A stretch of 64,000 nucleotides of DNA from an uncultured Gammaproteobacteria bacterium (GTDB lineage: Bacteria > Pseudomonadota > Gammaproteobacteria > HK1): assembly GCA_958295465.1 (NCBI GenBank), contig OY282353.1:4207001-4271000 (forward strand), written 5' to 3'. Each line of letters begins with the position of its first letter. Positions within the stretch are counted from its first letter, which is position 1. The notes under the pieces were generated by a model. It was given only the letters and a program-made list of their open reading frames with translations, did not search any database and was not told the DNA's origin. A program made the position numbers and the translations under genes. Below, one piece after another: positions 1,615-10,904 of the stretch.

Positions 1615-2715
1615 TCACTCCCCCGGCAGGACGTGGACGTCCTCCGCCGGCCACGACGCCCACATCGTCGCGCCCACTTCGAGAGCCAGCGTATCGAGTT
1701 CGCGCTGCTGCTTCTGCGCCCGGAACGGGCTGCCGTCGGAGGCTTCGAAGTGCAGCGTCACCACCGAACCGATGAACTCCTCGCTGATGAGTGCGAGGCG
1801 CACTTCGTTGCCCGCTCCCGCGGGCTGCCCGCTCAGTGCGATCCGATCGGCGCCGACCACGAACGTGATCCCGCCGCCCGGAGTGCGCGCAACGTCGCCG
1901 GTGACCGTCGCCCGGAGCATGCCGAGCGCGGTCTCCGCCGTCACGACGCCTTCGCGGTAATCGGTGACGATGCCGGAGATGATGTTGTTGGCGCCGACGA
2001 ATTCCGCGACGAACCGGTTCGCGGGGCTGCGATAGACCTGCTGGGGCGTACCGATCTGCTCCACGACCCCGCGGCTCATGATGACCACGCGGTCCGCCAT
2101 CGCGAACGCCTCGGACTGGCTGTGCGTCACGTATACGAAGGTGATCCCGAGATCGCGCTGCAGGCGTGCGAGCACCGCCTGCATGCGCACGACGAGGTTC
2201 GCGTCGAGCGCGCTCATGGGCTCGTCGAGCAGCAGGATGCGGGGCTCGGTGACCAGTGCGCGGGCCAGCGCCACCCGCTGGCGCTGGCCGCCGGAGAGCT
2301 GGGCCACGTCGCGATCGGCGAGCTCCGCGATCTCCATGCGATCGAGCCAGGCCATCGCCTTCTCGCGCCGGGCCGGCGCAGGGATGCCGCGCATCCTGAG
2401 GCCGAACTCCACGTTCCGGCGCACGTCGAGAAACGGAAACAGGGCCAGCGTCTGCCACACCATGGGGGTGTCGCGCTCGGCCGGGCTCAGCTCGTTGACC
2501 CGGCGGCCCTCGATCCGGATCTCGCCCTCGCTCGGGCGCTCCAGGCCCGCGAGCATGCGTAGCGTGGTCGTCTTGCCGCAGCCGCTCGATCCCATGATCG
2601 CGACGAACTCGCCCTCGCCGATCGCGAGGTCCATGCGCTCCACCGCGACGGTGTCGCCGAAGCGCCTGGTCACGCCCTCGAAGACCACCAGCGGCTCATG
2701 TCCGGGCTCAGGCAC
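1615..2715 (-). CDS. ABC transporter ATP-binding protein, polyamine type (PotA-like)
   Basis: ATPase of a spermidine/putrescine-type importer. All ABC motifs are intact: Walker A GSSGCGKTT (42-50), Q-loop WQ (87-88), signature LSGGQ (140-144), Walker B LLLDEP (161-166) and the H-loop His198. The C-terminal 100 residues form the TOBE/MOP-like regulatory domain expected at 366 residues. It overlaps the upstream permease gene by 8 bases and is the last gene of a potD-potB-potC-potA operon. Substrate could be a polyamine, betaine or related amine. The puuA/puuD genes elsewhere in the window fit a polyamine, but this is inference. Confidence 0.9.
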   Translation of the reverse strand: MPEPGHEPLVVFEGVTRRFGDTVAVERMDLAIGEGEFVAIMGSSGCGKTTTLRMLAGLERPSEGEIRIEGRRVNELSPAERDTPMVWQTLALFPFLDVRRNVEFGLRMRGIPAPARREKAMAWLDRMEIAELADRDVAQLSGGQRQRVALARALVTEPRILLLDEPMSALDANLVVRMQAVLARLQRDLGITFVYVTHSQSEAFAMADRVVIMSRGVVEQIGTPQQVYRSPANRFVAEFVGANNIISGIVTDYREGVVTAETALGMLRATVTGDVARTPGGGITFVVGADRIALSGQPAGAGNEVRLALISEEFIGSVVTLHFEASDGSPFRAQKQQRELDTLALEVGATMWASWPAEDVHVLPGE

Positions 2716-3502
2716 GCCGGGGCGCCTTCGTCATGATGAGGATCTGGGCGACGACCACCAGGGTCATGGAGGTGATGAACACGATGCTCCCGATCGCGTT
2801 GATCTGCGGATCGACGTTGCCCTGGAGGATCTCGAGGATGATGACCGGCACCGTCTTGTTGAGCCCGGAGACGAACCAGGCGACGGCGAACTCGTCGAAC
2901 GAGACCGCGGCGGTGAGGCAGAGCGCCGCCACGATCGCGGGCGCGGTGAAGGGGAGGATCACCGCCCCCATCGCCTGCCATTCGCTCGCTCCCAGGTTCC
3001 ACGCCGCCGCCTCCAGGCTGGGGTCCATCTGCGCGAGCCGGAGCCGGATGACGGCCATCGCGAAGGGCGAGCAGAGGACGACGTGCGCCACGATGATCGA
3101 GTCGAGCCGGCCGGACATCCCGATGCGCGAGAGCAGCGCGAGCATCGCGAGCCCCATGATCACGAGCGGGATGGTGGGCGGCAGCAGCGCGAGCCCGAGA
3201 TATGCGCTCTTGCCGAAGAACCTGAAGCGGTAGTCGGTATACGCGGTGCAGAAGCCGATGAACGTCGCGATCACCGCGGTGCACGCCGACACGATCGCGC
3301 TGTTGGCGAACGCTTCCCATACGTCGGGGTCGTTGAAGATGGTCTCGTACCAGTGCAGCGTGAAGTGTCCGAGCGGAAGGGTCGGAAAGCGATCGGAGTT
3401 GAACGAGAACACGAAGCTCGCCGCGATGGGCGCGAACACGAATGCGAACACCACCACGACGTAGCCGCGGAGGAACCAGGCGGTGGCGCGCTCGGCGCTC
3501 AT
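2708..3502 (-). CDS. ABC transporter permease, PotC-like
   Basis: Inner-membrane permease of 264 residues with six predicted hydrophobic segments. The EAA loop (EAAAWNLGASEWQAMGAVILP, about 164-184) docks the ATPase. The ATG at 3502 overlaps the stop of the upstream permease by four bases (ATGA), the usual sign of translational coupling, and fixes the start even though the frame is open further upstream. Works as the second half of a heterodimeric permease with the PotB-like gene. Confidence 0.9.
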   Translation of the reverse strand: MSAERATAWFLRGYVVVVFAFVFAPIAASFVFSFNSDRFPTLPLGHFTLHWYETIFNDPDVWEAFANSAIVSACTAVIATFIGFCTAYTDYRFRFFGKSAYLGLALLPPTIPLVIMGLAMLALLSRIGMSGRLDSIIVAHVVLCSPFAMAVIRLRLAQMDPSLEAAAWNLGASEWQAMGAVILPFTAPAIVAALCLTAAVSFDEFAVAWFVSGLNKTVPVIILEILQGNVDPQINAIGSIVFITSMTLVVVAQILIMTKAPRRA

Positions 3503-4353
3503 GCGCGCCTGCGGTACGCGAGCGCGACCGCGGTGAAGGCCACGGCGAACAGGGTGGCGATCATCGTCACCGCGACCACCGCCGCGCGCGGCCACTGCTG
3601 GCCCGACTTCGTGGTGTCGACGATGAGGATGCTCAACGTCGGCGGCTTGCTGCCGCCGAGGTAGTAGGGGCTCACGAAGTCGCCGAAGGAGAGGATGAAG
3701 CAGAACGTCGCCGCGATGATCAGCCCCACCTTCGCCAGCGGAACGATCACCACGAACACCGCCTTCAGCCGGCCGCAGCCGAGGTTCCACGCCGCCTCGA
3801 CGAGATTGCGGTCCACGCTCGCCAGGCTGAAGAGCTGCAGGACCACCACCAGCGGAAGGCTGAGCGTGAGATAGCCGATCAGCGTCCCGAACCTGGTGTT
3901 GAGCATCGGCCAGGGACCGACCCCGACGGCCGAGAGCAATCCGTTGATGACTCCCGTATCGCCGAGAAAGATCTGCCACGAGTAGGCGCGCACGAGGTAG
4001 CTCGTGAAGAACGGGATGATGAGGAAGAACATCGCCCACCGACGCACCGCCGGCGAGGTCCTGAACGCCAGCGCGCAGGCGCAGGGGAAGGCGAGGATGC
4101 TGGTCACCGCGGTCGAGAGCAGCGCCATCGTGAAGGTGAAACCGAAGGCGTCCCAGAAATATCCGCGCGAGTACATCTTGACCCAGTTGACGGTGTCGAA
4201 CCCCGGCACCATCCGGTAGTTCCTGACCAGCCAGAACGTGAGCGCGAGGAGGAAGCACAGCGGAAAGACGAAGAACACGAGCTGCCACAGGACCATCGGC
4301 ATGGCCCAGGTGAGACCGTAGAACGAGACGGTTCTGACGCCTCTGGCCTGCAT
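3499..4353 (-). CDS. ABC transporter permease, PotB-like
   Basis: Permease of 284 residues with six hydrophobic segments and an EAA loop (EAAWNLGCGRLKAVFVVIVP). Pairs with the PotC-like subunit, to which it is coupled by an ATGA overlap. It is separated from the solute-binding gene by 345 bases that hold only a GC hairpin near the binding-protein stop, so the two membrane genes and the ATPase may be expressed at a lower level than the binding protein. Confidence 0.9.
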   Translation of the reverse strand: MQARGVRTVSFYGLTWAMPMVLWQLVFFVFPLCFLLALTFWLVRNYRMVPGFDTVNWVKMYSRGYFWDAFGFTFTMALLSTAVTSILAFPCACALAFRTSPAVRRWAMFFLIIPFFTSYLVRAYSWQIFLGDTGVINGLLSAVGVGPWPMLNTRFGTLIGYLTLSLPLVVVLQLFSLASVDRNLVEAAWNLGCGRLKAVFVVIVPLAKVGLIIAATFCFILSFGDFVSPYYLGGSKPPTLSILIVDTTKSGQQWPRAAVVAVTMIATLFAVAFTAVALAYRRRA

Positions 4354-4698: not shown

Positions 4699-5850
4699 TC
4701 ATGCGTTCTTGTATTCGGACCAGAAGTCGTTCCAGTCCTCGAGGCTCTGCTGCCTGGGGATGTCGCGGAAGTGGATGTGTCCCTCCCGGCGGAGATCCAC
4801 GGCGTTCCTCTTGCCGGAGACCATGCCCTGGCGCTCGGCCTCCGCGGGGTTCGCCGCCTGCAGCGCCTTCCAGCCCGACCGATAGGGGAGGATGCCGGGG
4901 TATGCCGCCATCTGGGCGGAGCGCACCTGGCCCGGACCTGAGGTCATGTACTGGATGAACGTCTTCACGAGGTCCTGCTTCTTCGATCCCTTGCCGATCG
5001 AGAACGACTCCGTCCACTGGATGCCGCCCTGCTTCGGAACCACCGAATCGACCGGCGCTCCGTCCTTCTGCAGCACGCCGGTGATCCAGTCTCCAATCCC
5101 GCACATCGCGTGGATCTGGCCGTTCTTGAGCGACGAGAACGTGCCGCCGTAGTCGAAGAAACCGCCGACCTGGGGTTTCAGCGAGAGGGTCGTCTCCCGG
5201 AGCCGTTTCCACTGGCCGTCGCCGATGTCGAAGGGGCTCGGGTCGTTGTTCCCGTCGCGCAGGCTCAGGCAGCCGAGGTTCGGCAGATGCCAGTCGAAGT
5301 GACCGACCTTGCCCGCGAGCTTTTCCTCCCACAGCACGTTGTAGTCGCTCGCTTCCTCGTGGCTGACGATCGTGGTGTTGAACGACACCCCGAGATAGCC
5401 GAAGCGGACGATCACCGAGTAGAGCCTGCCGTCCTTCCAGTGCCCCGGGAAGTTCCGGTACTCGGGAAACAGATCGTCGAGGGGATAGTCGGCGGGGTTC
5501 ATCTCCTCGATGTAGCCGGCCGCGTCGAGCTGCTGCACGAACTCGGCGTCGGAGAGGATGACGTCGTACGTCCCCGGCGGCGACTGTGCGATGAGCGCCA
5601 GCATGTTGTCCCCGCCCGCGTAGTACTTGGGCTTGAACTTCACGTTGTGCATCTTCTCGAACTCGTCGACGACGTCCGGCTCGCCGTGGCCGTACCAGGC
5701 AAGCATGTTGATCTCGGTCGGGGCCGCGAACGCCTTGCGGCCGGTGAGTACGAGCGGCGCGGCGAGCACGCCGGCCACTGCACCGCCGGTCTTGAGAAAG
5801 TTCCGGCGGGAGGTCTGCTGGAGCGCCGTCCGGCGCCGTTTCTCGGTCAT
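4699..5850 (-). CDS. Periplasmic solute-binding protein, spermidine/putrescine type (PotD-like)
   Basis: Extracytoplasmic binding protein of 383 residues. The N-terminus has a twin-arginine signal (SRRNFLKTG, Arg15-Arg16) followed by a hydrophobic stretch and a likely cleavage after residue 42-43, so it is exported folded by Tat. The start at 5850 has a GAGGAGAGG ribosome site; the frame is open further upstream but without support. The body (MLAWYGHGEPDVVDEFEK, DVILSDAEFVQQL) is typical of PotD/PotF-type binding proteins. First gene of the importer operon. Ligand not determinable from sequence. Confidence 0.9.
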   Translation of the reverse strand: MTEKRRRTALQQTSRRNFLKTGGAVAGVLAAPLVLTGRKAFAAPTEINMLAWYGHGEPDVVDEFEKMHNVKFKPKYYAGGDNMLALIAQSPPGTYDVILSDAEFVQQLDAAGYIEEMNPADYPLDDLFPEYRNFPGHWKDGRLYSVIVRFGYLGVSFNTTIVSHEEASDYNVLWEEKLAGKVGHFDWHLPNLGCLSLRDGNNDPSPFDIGDGQWKRLRETTLSLKPQVGGFFDYGGTFSSLKNGQIHAMCGIGDWITGVLQKDGAPVDSVVPKQGGIQWTESFSIGKGSKKQDLVKTFIQYMTSGPGQVRSAQMAAYPGILPYRSGWKALQAANPAEAERQGMVSGKRNAVDLRREGHIHFRDIPRQQSLEDWNDFWSEYKNA

Positions 5851-6031
5851 TGGATCCTCTCCTCGTACGAATGGCGTGCTCTCATGAATTTTCCGGGGGC
5901 GGAGCCGCGGCAGCGAGCGGACCGGCCCGCTACGCGGGATCGCCGCGGCGATGGTAGCCTGCATTTCCCGCCAATTCACGGTTGCGGGCACAGGGCCGTG
6001 TCCGATGGATGTTCCGGGAGGGGGCGACGCC

Positions 6032-7393
6032 GTGAACCGATTCGAATTCCGAAAACGATTCAAGACGGTGGGACCCGCGGTGCTGCCGGTCATCCACGCA
6101 CGGGACCGCGGGCAGGTCGTTCGCAACGTGCGGGTCGCGGTGCGCGAGGGCGCGCACGGTGTTTTCCTCATCAACCACGATTTCGAGCTTGAGCGGCTGC
6201 TGCCCATCGTTCGCGAGGTGCGCGAGCGGTTCCCCTCGCTCTGGTTCGGTGTCAACTTCCTCGCCGTGACCGGGGCGCGGGCGTTCCCGGTGCTGGGGGA
6301 CCTCGAACGCTCGGGCTGCGTGGTCGATGCGTACTGGGCCGACGACGCCCGCATCGACGAGCGCGCGGACGTGCAACGCGAGGCTGTCGCGACCGCCGAG
6401 GCGCGCCGGGAGAGCGGCTGGAGCGGACTCTATCTCGGCGGCGTCGCCTTCAAGAAGCAGCGGGCGGTGGCGCCGGAGGACTTCGAGACCGCGGCGAGGA
6501 TCGCGGCCCGGCACATGGATGCGGCCACCACCTCGGGGGCCGCGACGGGACGATCGGCGGAGCGCTCCAAGATCGAGGCGTTCCGCGCGGGATGCGCGGA
6601 TCAGGCGCTCGCCGTCGCCTCCGGCGTCACGCCGGACAACGCCGGCTCGTACGCCGAGCTCGTGGACGCGGTCCTCGTCGCCACCGGCATCAACCGCCCG
6701 GGGAACTTCTACGACATCGAGCCGATGCGGCTGCGCCGGCTCCTGGCGGTATGCCGCGAGGCCGGCGCGGGAGAGCCGGAGCCGGGCCCCGACGCCGGCT
6801 GGTACCTGCCGCTCATGGCTCCGAACGTTCGAGGCGAGCGGTTCGCGTGGCTGGATCCGTCGTCGATCTACATCAACGCGAGCGCATTTCATGCACTGGT
6901 CGATGATCTGGCCGCGCCCTTCGACCCCTCGAAGATCGACGTGGTCGCCGGCTTCGACGCCATGGGGTTCGTGCTCGGAAGTGCGATCGCGACCCGTCTC
7001 GGCAAGGGGTTCCTGACCATTCGCAAGGCCGGGAAGATGCCGGTCGACACCGACTCGGTCGATTTCGTGAACTACTCCGGCCGCACCCAGCAGATGGAGA
7101 TGCGCAAGCCGGCGTTCGCGCCGGGGACCCGGGTGCTGCTCGTCGATCAGTGGGTGGAGACCGGCGGCACGATGGACGCCGGCATCCGGCTCGTCGAGCG
7201 TCAGGGGGGTGTGGTCGCAGGCGTCGCCGCCGTGTGTATCGAGGAGACCGGCGGGGGCGCCGTCTGCCGCGGCCGGTACCGGTGCTCGACCGCGGTGGTC
7301 CCGGGGACGGCGGAGCAGGAACAGTGCAACCGCAAGACGATGGACCACTTCGCGGACTTCGATCCCGCCTGCTGTTTTCCGGAAATCTCGTAG
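6032..7393 (+). CDS. BtpA-like TIM-barrel fused to a phosphoribosyltransferase
   Basis: Two-domain protein of 453 residues. Residues about 1-240 look like the BtpA/SgcQ TIM-barrel family (VLPVIHARDRGQVVRN, WFGVNFLAVTG). The C-terminal part is a type I phosphoribosyltransferase with the PRPP loop VLLVDQWVETGGTM near residues 367-380, ending in a Cys-rich tail. The GTG at 6032 is chosen because GGGAGGGG lies about 8 bases upstream; an ATG at 6005 lacks a ribosome site. It stands alone, divergent from the potD-like operon. It may couple nucleobase or nucleoside salvage to a second reaction; the substrate is unknown. Confidence 0.7.
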   Translation: MNRFEFRKRFKTVGPAVLPVIHARDRGQVVRNVRVAVREGAHGVFLINHDFELERLLPIVREVRERFPSLWFGVNFLAVTGARAFPVLGDLERSGCVVDAYWADDARIDERADVQREAVATAEARRESGWSGLYLGGVAFKKQRAVAPEDFETAARIAARHMDAATTSGAATGRSAERSKIEAFRAGCADQALAVASGVTPDNAGSYAELVDAVLVATGINRPGNFYDIEPMRLRRLLAVCREAGAGEPEPGPDAGWYLPLMAPNVRGERFAWLDPSSIYINASAFHALVDDLAAPFDPSKIDVVAGFDAMGFVLGSAIATRLGKGFLTIRKAGKMPVDTDSVDFVNYSGRTQQMEMRKPAFAPGTRVLLVDQWVETGGTMDAGIRLVERQGGVVAGVAAVCIEETGGGAVCRGRYRCSTAVVPGTAEQEQCNRKTMDHFADFDPACCFPEIS

Positions 7394-7434
7394 CGCCCTT
7401 GCGAACCGGCCAATCCGGGCTTCAGCGTGACGTG

Positions 7435-7692
7435 GCATGCCGTCGCCGGACGCTCGCAACGAGCCGTCCCGTGAGGGTGCCGAGCGAACGGTGGCCAACA
7501 CCGAAGACCGTCTCACCGCGGGTGACCGGGACCTCCGGCGAGCAACACGATATGGGGCGGTCGCCGCATGCCGTCGCCGGGCGCTCGCAACGAGCCGTCC
7601 CGTGAGGGTGCCGAGCGAACGGTGGCCAACACCGAAGACCGTCTCACCGCGGGTGGTCAGAACCTCCGGCGAGCAACACGATATGGGGCGGC
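7435..7692. repeat. Tandem direct repeat, two 131-bp units
   Basis: The unit starting GCATGCCGTCGCCGG is present twice, at 7435-7565 and 7566-7692, with only a few mismatches (near GTGACCGGG versus GTGGTCAGA). Neither strand shows a convincing gene. It fills the gap between two convergent genes. Confidence 0.85.
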
Positions 7693-7782: not shown

Positions 7783-8664
7783 TCACTCGTGCGGCCGCCG
7801 GCGCCTGAAATCGTCGGCGACCTCACGCATCGTGACAAAGCGCACCCCCGGCTTCGAGCGCATGTGCTCGAACAGCCGCTCGTGCATGGACAGCACCTGC
7901 GGCCGACCGGAGACGTCGGGGTGAATGGTCATGGGGAAGACCGCGTAGTCGTACTTGCGGTAGACCCAGTCGAACGCATCGCGCCACGTCTCCTCGACGA
8001 CTCTCGGGCTTTCGAACCCCTGGCTGTTCGGCACCGTCTTCATGAACATGAGCGGCACCATGTCGTCGAGATGCCAGCTCGCGGGGATTTCGACGAGATC
8101 CGTCTCCCGGCCCCGCACGAGCGGCTTCATCCAGTGCCCGGCGGGCTTCGAGTAGTCGATCTTCGTCCACGTGTCGCCGGTGCGGACGTAGTACGGGTGG
8201 AAGTCGTCGTGCATGAGGCTGTGGTCGTACTCGATGCCGCGGGCGAGCAGCAGCTCCGCCGTCACCGCGCTGAACTCCCACCACGGCGCGACGTAGCCCG
8301 CGGGCCGCTCACCGGTCAGCCTTTCGAGCAACTCGATGCAGCGATCGAGGACCGCCTCTTCCTGGTCCGGCGTCATCGCGATCGGATTCTCGTGGCTGTA
8401 GCCGTGCAGGCCGACCTCGTGGCCGGCCTCGACGATCGCGGCCGCCTGCTCGGGAAACGTTTCGACGGAGTGTCCCGGAACGAACCAGGTCACGGGGATG
8501 GCGAACTCGCGGAAGAGGTCCAGCAACCGCGGGACGCCGACCTCGCCGGCGAACAGTCCACGCGAGATGTCGAGCGGCGAGTCCTCTCCTCCGTAGGAGC
8601 CCAGCCAGCCCGCGACGGCATCGAAATCCACGCCGTAAGCACAGAGAATCTCTTTCTCGGCCAT
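7783..8664 (-). CDS. Polysaccharide deacetylase family protein (HpPgdA/PuuE-like)
   Basis: A NodB-fold metal-dependent deacetylase of 293 residues. The metal and catalytic motifs are visible: VDFD (Asp13, Asp15) and HGYSH (His87, His91), followed by YVAPWWEF. The pattern is that of the cytoplasmic HpPgdA/allantoinase PuuE branch rather than secreted chitin deacetylases, and no signal peptide is present. The start at 8664 has a GGGAGA ribosome site 8 bases upstream; a frame to 8721 has none. Substrate may be a small amide or N-acyl compound. Monocistronic. Confidence 0.8.
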
Positions 8665-8815
8665 GTGTCGTCTCCCGATCGGATGGACAGCATGCTCCCC
8701 CAGTTTCATGCGGGCGTCCATTTCTCAGCGTGATCCTGACCGCCATCCCCGGTCTCTTGATCTCGGTGGAGTGCGCCCTGACTCATCTTTACCACCCCAT
8801 CCCACAATTTCTCAT

Positions 8816-9228: not shown

Positions 9229-9444
9229 ACGGTATCGGGGGGCGGGTCAGGCGCAAGACATCAAATACATTACATGGCACTACATCTGCTTCCTCGACGA
9301 CACATCAATCACCTACACGCGAAAATCGGCGAAATCGCGACGAATCCCCACCCAATCGCGGCTCGCAGTGGTAAAGATGGGCTAACTTGTTTTCCGATCT
9401 GGGAGTCTGCGCCGCAGAAAGATAGCCCGGCCCGGAACGATGCT

Positions 9445-9472: not shown

Positions 9473-9570
9473 CGACGGTGATGTCCCCGTGTTTGGCGAC
9501 ACCGCGGTACGGCGCCAATCCAACGACCGACCAGTGCGGGCGCCGGTACTCCGACGCGTAAGGGGTAGCC

Positions 9571-9676
9571 GAAGCGGCGGCGGTCCGTCGAGGGGCATCA
9601 CTGGAACTTACGCAGCAGTCATTCGGCAGGCCGGGCGGAGAAGCGGCGGCGGCCCGTCGAGGGGCATCACTGGAAC
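9571..9676. repeat. Two 37-bp direct repeats
   Basis: The same 37-base sequence (GAAGCGGCGGCGG then Y, then CCGTCGAGGGGCATCACTGG-AAC) is found at 9571-9607 and 9640-9676 with one mismatch, separated by 32 bases. No gene is seen here. Confidence 0.8.
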
Positions 9677-9809
9677 CGCGCTTCCGCGCCATTGCGGGGC
9701 TCGCGCGCACCCGCGATCGCACCGAGCTCCAGCGGATGTTCGACACGTACCGAGCGCCGTCCTTGCTCGAAGTTCTTCAACATCGTGGTCCCACCACCGG
9801 CGGCGCGTC

Positions 9810-10904
9810 ATGAGCCACACCGCCAGCTTGTTCGCGGCATCGCTCCACTATCCGCCGGACCTCGTCCTCCACACCGCGGCATCCGGCGCGATCGCCGGGC
9901 TCGATGAGCTCTACCTGCTGATCGAACGTGACGGCGAGACCGTCGGACTCGGCGAGGTTCGGGAGAACGTCGAATACCTGACCGGCGTTCCCCCGGCTCG
10001 CATCCGCGCCGACGTGGCCGCAATGCTCGAATGCATCGACTGGAGCGTTCCGCCCCCACCGGAGGAGATCCACGCCCGGTTCCCCGACACCTGCACGCCC
10101 GCGCGCTGCCTCATCGACTGCACCCTGCACGACGTGCACGCCCGCCGTGCAGGGATCCCGCTCGGCGAGTATCTGGGCGGAAGGTTCACCGGGCGGATCG
10201 CCTCCAACCACTGCATCTCCTGGGGCGACGACGCCACTCTCGAACGTCTTGCGAAGCGCTGCGTCGACCGCGGATTCGAGAAGCTCAAGCTCCGGGTCGG
10301 GGTCGCGAGTTTCGACCGCGATCTCGAACGGCTCGCGAAGCTGCGCGCCCTCATCGGGAGCGGGCGTTCATTGGCGGTCGATGCGAACGCGCGCTGGACC
10401 GCCGGCGAAGCCGGAGAGCGGATGCAGGCGATGCGGGTGTTCAATCTCGACCATGTCGAACAGCCGCTCGCGCGCGACGACTGGAAGGGTCTCGACATGC
10501 TGGTCGAGGAGCTGGACACACCGATCATGCTCGACGAGGGCGTCGACTCGCTCGCGGCGGTGGACCGCGTCATCGGCTACCGCGGCCGCGTATGGGCGCA
10601 CCTCAAGCTCGTGAAGCTCGGCGGCATCGTCCCGGTGCTCGAAGCGGCACGGCGCCTGCGCGCGCACGGAGTGCCGTTCATGCTTGGGCAGATGAACGAG
10701 GGAAGCGCCGCCACCGCCGCGGCGATCCACACCGCGATGGCGGTGCGCGCGCCGATGGCGGAGCTCTACGGCGCGGACGGGCTCCGCGACGATCCCGTGA
10801 CCGGAGTCTGGTACGAGCGGGGCGGCGCGTGCGTGAAGCAAGGCGCGGGGCTCGGTACGGCTCTCGACCCCCGGGGGCTGAGACTGATTGCCCGATTTCG
10901 ATAA
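9810..10904 (+). CDS. Enolase-superfamily enzyme (mandelate racemase/muconate lactonizing type)
   Basis: A 364-residue member of the enolase superfamily, which abstracts a proton next to a carboxylate with Mg2+ help. Visible active-site residues: KLK (Lys158, Lys160), metal ligands Asp191, Glu217 and Asp242, and a second catalytic Lys at 266 or 269 (HLKLVKLGG). This places it in the MLE subgroup (cycloisomerase, dipeptide epimerase or o-succinylbenzoate synthase types). Start ATG at 9810 is the one that begins the conserved region, but its ribosome site is weak. No pathway neighbours; substrate unknown. Confidence 0.8.
   Translation: MSHTASLFAASLHYPPDLVLHTAASGAIAGLDELYLLIERDGETVGLGEVRENVEYLTGVPPARIRADVAAMLECIDWSVPPPPEEIHARFPDTCTPARCLIDCTLHDVHARRAGIPLGEYLGGRFTGRIASNHCISWGDDATLERLAKRCVDRGFEKLKLRVGVASFDRDLERLAKLRALIGSGRSLAVDANARWTAGEAGERMQAMRVFNLDHVEQPLARDDWKGLDMLVEELDTPIMLDEGVDSLAAVDRVIGYRGRVWAHLKLVKLGGIVPVLEAARRLRAHGVPFMLGQMNEGSAATAAAIHTAMAVRAPMAELYGADGLRDDPVTGVWYERGGACVKQGAGLGTALDPRGLRLIARFR

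Follow-up and report, generated by a model that had tools for sequence, protein, structure and literature searches.

A recurrent pair of a BtpA-like barrel and a class I phosphoribosyltransferase, fused in an uncultured gammaproteobacterium, with a UMP-synthase-like architecture

What might a cell do with a protein that joins a TIM barrel distantly related to BtpA/SgcQ to a phosphoribosyltransferase (PRT)? The question is raised by a gene in a 64,000-nucleotide stretch of DNA from an uncultured Gammaproteobacteria bacterium (the window), where a reading of the whole stretch places an open frame at 5951-7393 on the + strand (Table 1). The earlier note, made from the sequence alone, had proposed that a barrel and a PRT are fused between 6032 and 7393, and Pfam, NCBIfam, Foldseek and copies in other genomes bear this out. 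The GTG at 6032 was chosen as the start because the residue aligned with it is the first residue of the separately annotated barrel genes in the plasmid loci L033 and L034. The fused gene is present over its full length in a second genome of the genus (G002, 87% identity) and in one of the same family (G015, 70%); in a third genome (G003, 85%), the match begins at residue 147 of the fused protein. The full-length homologues rule out a frameshift or assembly artefact as the source of the fusion, and the gene is therefore confirmed as real.

Some repeated DNA was observed around the gene and elsewhere in its genome. Just downstream of the fused gene, at 7435-7691, a 131-base unit stands twice, head-to-tail, the two copies being 96% alike. 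At about 3.79 Mb of the same genome (G000 C1; L039 10062-10448) lies a partial copy of the fused-gene region from which most of the gene is missing: it corresponds to window positions 5934-5994 (92%) followed closely by the 3' end of the gene (7248-7399, 92%), and beside it there is 77% similarity to window positions 9230-9382.

Table 1. Features of the fused-gene locus in the window and, in the last row, positions of the PCxxC-less deaminase paralogues in other loci
Feature	Position	Strand	Basis or remark
Fused gene, BtpA-type barrel and class I PRT	6032..7393	+	GTG start, 453 aa
N-terminal TIM barrel, residues 1-245 (predicted)	6032..6766	+	AlphaFold2 model, Foldseek/VIA matches
C-terminal PRT domain, residues 258-453	6803..7390	+	Pfam PF00156; Foldseek
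PRPP loop VLLVDQWVETGGTM, residues 368-381	7133..7174	+	Seven residues invariant in 71 PRT rows
PotD-like substrate-binding protein, divergent from the fused gene	4699..5850	-	Homologue in 67/80 loci (best 80 of 158)
PotB-like permease	3499..4353	-	Operon HMM 466 bits
PotC-like permease	2708..3502	-	Operon HMM 485 bits
PotA-like ABC ATPase	1615..2715	-	Operon HMM 549 bits
PCxxC-less deaminase paralogue	L046 2156-2554; L052 9101-9529; L094 1150-1521; L107 3231-3713; L108 5866-6249		

By profile scores, the N-terminal domain is a distant relative of BtpA. The Pfam BtpA entry (PF03437) matches residues 135-238 with 28.8 bits, just below its gathering cut-off of 30 bits, which the separately encoded relatives in L033 and L034 exceed (36.9 and 38.1 bits), and the window protein stays under the cut-offs of both NCBIfam BtpA models (TIGR00259, 29.9 against 153.4 bits; NF045918, 32.4 against 400 bits). 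The earlier assignment to BtpA/SgcQ holds as a domain call, by a weak profile match. Searching the barrel sequence against solved structures returned nothing meaningful. For the whole protein, AlphaFold2 with 121 window and locus sequences predicts a barrel, a poorly modelled linker at about residues 249-252 and the PRT (mean pLDDT 92.8, pTM 0.65); residues 1-246 alone reach a pLDDT of 95.0 and a pTM of 0.92. The folds nearest to the barrel model are RPE, TrpA, TrpF and KDPGal aldolase in Foldseek, to which VIA-align adds 3-hexulose-6-phosphate synthase and OMP decarboxylase, all tightly grouped at Z scores of 17-19.6 (RPE 3ovq_A, 18.3, 3.1 Å over 205 residues; TrpF 1nsj, 18.0, 2.8 Å over 194 residues; KDPGal aldolase 2v81, 19.4, 2.4 Å over 198 residues; OMP decarboxylase, 17.2). 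As modelled, the domain belongs to the ribulose-phosphate-type barrels, and its reaction cannot be read from the predicted fold; RPE, TrpF and OMP decarboxylase bind ligands of the phosphopentose type.

Across 60 barrels, among them three from loci in which no PRT was found (L096, L101 and L078), 44 positions are invariant. More distant homologues, with about 32-36% identity to the barrel of L096, were observed on large plasmids of Variovorax, Bosea, Pseudomonas and Delftia (L035, L036, L123 and L124), mostly among hypothetical genes; on the Variovorax plasmid, the gene next to the homologue matches TrpF (PF00697, 3.5e-6).

The C-terminal domain is recognized by Pfam Pribosyltran (PF00156) at residues 289-406, with 38.5 bits against a cut-off of 26.3, and the top Foldseek match of the whole model is E. 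coli APRT (2dy0, E 2.2e-13). The best NCBIfam matches are adenine PRTs, all under the apt cut-offs (NF002634, 110.8 against 170 bits; TIGR01090, 94.9 against 185.85 bits), and the orotate PRT model TIGR00336 gives 14.4 bits against a cut-off of 106.8, so that the domain does not score as the OPRT type of UMP synthase. The PRPP loop that the earlier note had read as VVETGGTM is present, with one letter to be corrected, the actual sequence being VLLVDQWVETGGTM. Within it, D372, Q373, W374, E376, T377, G378 and G379 are identical in all 71 PRT rows and T380 in 70 of the 71; D372, T377-G378-G379 and T380 supply the acidic residue (D/E) and the TG(G/A)T of a class I PRT loop.

The active site departs from that of adenine PRTs at several positions. 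The comparison set consisted of APRTs of relatives, 22 of 25 candidate loci having passed a filter on the PRPP-loop pattern; because the filter asked for this pattern, TGGT itself is no evidence, and the D and A positions lay outside the filter. As the second acid of the loop, all 22 APRTs have D, against Q (Q373) in 70 of 70 PRT rows, and before TGGT they have Ala, against E (E376), again 22 of 22 versus 70 of 70. Within the FRDI stretch, 21 of the 22 APRTs have Arg or Lys (the other has a gap), where each of the 70 rows has L. The LEYG loop contributes a Glu in all 22 APRTs, and a Tyr faces it in each of the 70 rows. 6-Oxopurine PRTs use the residue preceding TG as their catalytic acid. From these residues, we infer that the domain is probably a working PRPP enzyme acting on a base other than adenine. 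The genome holds a second, apt-like gene at C1:5269042.

Scanning genome contigs with the barrel yielded 158 relatives. The best 80 of them serve here as loci, each with a stretch of up to 10 kb on each side of the barrel, many clipped by contig ends. By record title, they derive mostly from alpha- and gammaproteobacteria, with three of Comamonadaceae type and one labelled Arcticimaribacter (L090). The fusion stands out less than the earlier note had supposed: in these best 80 of 158 loci, the same two proteins are encoded by adjacent separate genes in 53, fused in 22 and apart in one (L057), and in the remaining four no PRT was found within the stretch (L062, in which the contig ends shortly after the barrel, L078, L096 and L101). 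A quick tree of 83 barrels, in which 33 of 78 inner branches are weakly supported, has at least six switches between fused and not fused. The pair is constant and the fusion variable. Among 238 genomes sampled from the family, the barrel-PRT unit occurs in nine, with both genes adjacent in all nine, and among 299 sampled from the phylum it occurs in the window's own genome only.

The earlier note would have counted an architecture both common and characterized as its refutation; the architecture does recur, and titles and abstract starts in the open-access literature yielded no study of the barrel-PRT pair. Titles and abstract starts likewise showed no enzyme study of BtpA/SgcQ, BtpA being treated mostly in connection with photosynthesis and Brucella, and nothing on the pair in work on creatinase with cytosine or creatinine deaminase; nor did we find an open-access paper on cytosine deaminase, importer and PRT together in Roseobacter. 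As far as these searches show, the pair is uncharacterized, with an architecture like that of UMP synthase.

The neighbourhood gives the pair a metabolic setting. The leader of the PotD-like protein has an RR motif, which we take to be of the Tat type, and in the best 80 of 158 loci the rest of the importer recurs as well, the two permeases in 63 and 60 loci and the ATPase in 55. The same loci hold regulators of the LysR type (42 of 80) or GlxA type (7 of 80), a PuuE-like hydrolase (33 of 80), a PRPP synthetase (15 of 80, all 15 with split barrel and PRT genes) and DUF1989 (12 of 80). The operon setting looks like nucleobase uptake and catabolism.

A polysaccharide-deacetylase gene beside the fusion, at 7783-8721 of the window, was considered as the PuuE-like gene of the operon and rejected as belonging to another subgroup: it scores 341 bits against 454-588 in the 33 counted copies and has as its nearest structure 3qbu, a peptidoglycan deacetylase entry (3e-143), as opposed to 3rxz for the operon copy of L085. 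The window also encodes an enolase-superfamily (MR_MLE_C) protein at 9489-10904, near the fused-gene locus. Three loci labelled Neomegalonema (L068, L069 and L072) have the split pair followed by a zinc alcohol dehydrogenase; L069 and L072 also have a KduD-like dehydrogenase, and L069 adds a PfkB kinase.

Two unrelated types of cytosine deaminase recur in these operons, the yeast type in 26 and the CodA type in 13 of the best 80 of 158 loci, never both in one locus and neither within the stretch in 41. The deaminase of L077 aligns over nearly its full length with yeast cytosine deaminase (5e-45, against 1.2e-16 for TadA), and the CodA copy of L083 reaches 710.8 bits against the cut-off of 438 of the cytosine deaminase model PRK07572. 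When genes far from the unit are counted too, the 54 unit-bearing genomes (G000, G002, G003, G015 and the genomes of 50 of the 80 loci) comprise 31 with the yeast type, 28 with the CodA type, five with both and none with neither; the corresponding numbers in the phylum sample of 299 genomes, which includes the window's own genome and is unmatched for kinship, are 35, 56, 1 and 209, with either type in 90. Two unrelated deaminases thus replace one another, which, though uncorrected for kinship, is good evidence that the reaction common to both is part of the pathway.

In the window's own genome, the yeast-type deaminase gene (C1:4205881-4206312) falls outside the window, 0.7 kb short of its start and roughly 2.3 kb past the ATPase gene; in G002, a distance of about 57 kb separates the fused gene from a yeast-type deaminase gene that stands beside a UPRT gene (L128). 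The family sample of 238 genomes, where only the yeast type was considered, has this deaminase in four of nine unit genomes, and seven of 11 deaminase genomes are without the unit; the overlap has a hypergeometric p of 2.8e-4, uncorrected for relatedness, and with four genomes shared between nine and 11, most occurrences of either are apart. In five loci, a second deaminase paralogue without the PCxxC motif directly precedes the intact one (Table 1) and is possibly a dead partner subunit; L097 has instead a single long deaminase frame (396 bits) resembling two copies.

A further link to pyrimidines is seen in UPRT, which is encoded in seven of the best 80 of 158 loci, each of the seven also having the yeast-type deaminase. 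Within the same 80 loci, URC1 occurs in six and URC4 in three, and both stand beside the unit in L094, L097 and L115; of the copies scanned, URC1 of L108 matches GTP_CH_N and GTP cyclohydrolase II, and URC4 of L097 matches DUF1688. The yeast URC route leads from uracil through ribosylurea to urea and has a uracil PRT among its genes (PMC7530994). A general dependence of the unit on this route was rejected: URC4 (DUF1688) occurs in 17 of the 54 unit-bearing genomes, the window's own included, and was not found in the other 37, so the unit probably does not depend on URC4.

How, then, might barrel and PRT work together? With a confidence just short of even, we favour a two-step pair of the UMP synthase kind, in which the PRT would attach phosphoribose to an imported base and the barrel would process the resulting ribotide. 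The divergently encoded PotD-type importer would bring in a nitrogen base, for which a pyrimidine-type ring of the cytosine or uracil kind, or a close cyclic amide, is the likeliest candidate; the PRT would convert this base with PRPP into a 5'-phosphoribosyl derivative. The barrel would then act on this ribotide, the likeliest outcome being that ribose-5-phosphate is released while the base is altered or afterwards, and the PRPP synthetase, in operons that have one, would recharge the ribose-5-phosphate. The proposed substrate draws on a second kind of neighbour: L096 and L101, two of the loci with no PRT in the stretch, encode a kinase resembling ribokinase (70.5 and 75.9 bits, where the cut-off is 299.65) along with further transporter genes, L096 also encodes a D-ribose pyranase (124.9 bits; cut-off 93), and in Pararhizobium a classical BtpA gene directly follows a ribokinase gene. 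Because a PRT and a kinase can each supply a 5-phosphoribosyl compound by its own route, such a compound would be what the barrel acts on. The coupling of a nucleobase step to a sugar-phosphate step that the earlier note had imagined fits both the operon and the predicted barrel fold, the particular substrate and chemistry being those that we propose here.

There are arguments against this best reading. A ribotide made only to be cleaved would be futile unless the base were changed in between; in L115, UPRT with URC1 and URC4 should suffice for uracil, so the PRT would need another base there; and creatinase is even more enriched than the deaminases, which misfits a pure pyrimidine pathway. 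Also against it stand the 41 loci that show neither deaminase within the stretch, the inclusion of deaminase genes far from the unit in the count of 54 genomes, the position of the deaminase gene outside the window in the window's own genome, the weaker link with the yeast type in the family sample, the 37 genomes in which URC4 was not found, and a domain placement that differs from that of UMP synthase. A more elaborate version, in which import and deamination are followed by PRPP-dependent ribosylation and ring processing on the ribose carrier, after which the barrel releases ribose-5-phosphate and a dedicated PRPP synthetase recharges it, we consider unlikely; if true, this way of breaking down pyrimidines or cyclic amides would let Roseobacter-type operons run without URC1 and URC4.

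It is the creatinase that makes creatinine a serious rival for the substrate, though not for the two-step logic. Creatinine would then be the substrate of the deaminases, while the PRT and barrel would handle a hydantoin or amidine derived from it; such a pathway of creatinine and creatine we think quite improbable as a whole. Enzymes of the cytosine deaminase type may also deaminate creatinine, and creatinase is encoded in 12 of the best 80 of 158 loci, directly after the fused gene in six; the copy in L056 matches 1chm at 1e-175, and L078 brings together creatininase (365.3 bits, cut-off 235), creatinase and the barrel. Creatinase is also present in 48 of the 54 unit-bearing genomes, against 18 of the 299 phylum genomes, a contrast that is in part kinship, since 11 of those 18 belong to one family and the sample, which includes the window's own genome, is unmatched for kinship. 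The constant company of UPRT and the yeast-type deaminase, in all seven UPRT loci and again in L128 of G002, points instead to a path from cytosine through uracil to UMP, and we know of no creatinine route that uses PRPP.

Other alternatives keep the phosphoribosyl compound and change what the barrel does to it. In a pair resembling TrpD and TrpF, an exocyclic amine would receive phosphoribose from the PRT, and the barrel would isomerize the product in an Amadori-type reaction, as TrpF and HisA do. The place of TrpF 1nsj among the nearest barrel folds, weak matches of PF00697 (PRAI) to two separately encoded barrels (E 0.004 and 0.098) and a ketopentose phosphate as a possible catabolic product speak for this, but the TrpF fold is no better than RPE, HPS and KDPGal aldolase (within about 2 Z), TrpD has a different PRT fold, and APRT-like enzymes, which the window PRT resembles, ribosylate ring nitrogens; we judge the idea to be rather a poor prospect. 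Still less probable, in our view, is a barrel acting like OMP decarboxylase, changing the base of the ribotide, for example by decarboxylation, and leaving the nucleotide to ordinary salvage: the domain order is that of trypanosomatid UMP synthase and OMP decarboxylase is among the near barrel folds, whereas the PRT is APRT-like and not OPRT-like, as the TIGR00336 score indicates. We give hardly any credence to an ordinary adenine salvage enzyme with an unrelated barrel. Adenine PRTs are indeed its best NCBIfam matches, but the PRT falls under the cut-off of every apt model listed and lacks the residues common to the APRTs of relatives in all 70 rows, grounds on which we reject a plain APRT identity; moreover, the genome already has its apt-like gene, and no adenine-specific gene was recognized among the recurrent neighbours.

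Both the pairing, with the PRT fused or adjacent in 75 of the 80 loci, and the operon suggest a phosphoribosyl base as the ligand to test. Were our favoured two-step reading confirmed, it would supply a reaction for the BtpA/SgcQ family, whose proteins bear a photosystem name, and nucleobases might turn out to have a second catabolic route tethered to ribose.

The pair resembles several known systems, each in a different respect. TrpD and TrpF likewise consist of a PRT followed by a phosphoribosyl-binding TIM barrel, but their PRT is of another class. BtpA/SgcQ (PF03437) is the same barrel family by the weak profile match, and a classical member likewise has its gene beside that of a ribokinase; here, however, the barrel is coupled to a PRT and scores below the NCBIfam cut-offs, and we would not expect the photosystem role of the family name to apply. 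APRT is the nearest PRT in both sequence and fold, from which the window PRT differs in having DQWVETGGT in place of DDxxATGGT as its PRPP loop, and Leu and Tyr facing the Arg/Lys of FRDI and the Glu of LEYG. The URC system (UPRT, URC1 and URC4) also joins a base to phosphoribose before degrading it, and its genes share a locus with the unit in L094, L097 and L115, whereas barrel and PRT are not URC genes and most unit-bearing genomes yielded no URC4. An architectural parallel is the trypanosomatid UMP synthase (PDB 3qw4), which likewise carries an N-terminal phosphate-binding TIM barrel and a C-terminal class I PRT in one chain, a fusion of OMP decarboxylase and orotate PRT (described for trypanosomes in PMC3591441) that makes a ribotide and then changes it. 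Aligned by Foldseek to the Leishmania enzyme, also barrel then PRT, the whole model covers 499 alignment columns at an rmsd of 16.4, so the placement of the domains is not shared. The window protein differs in combining an APRT-like PRT with a BtpA-like barrel and in having an operon that is apparently catabolic, not biosynthetic.
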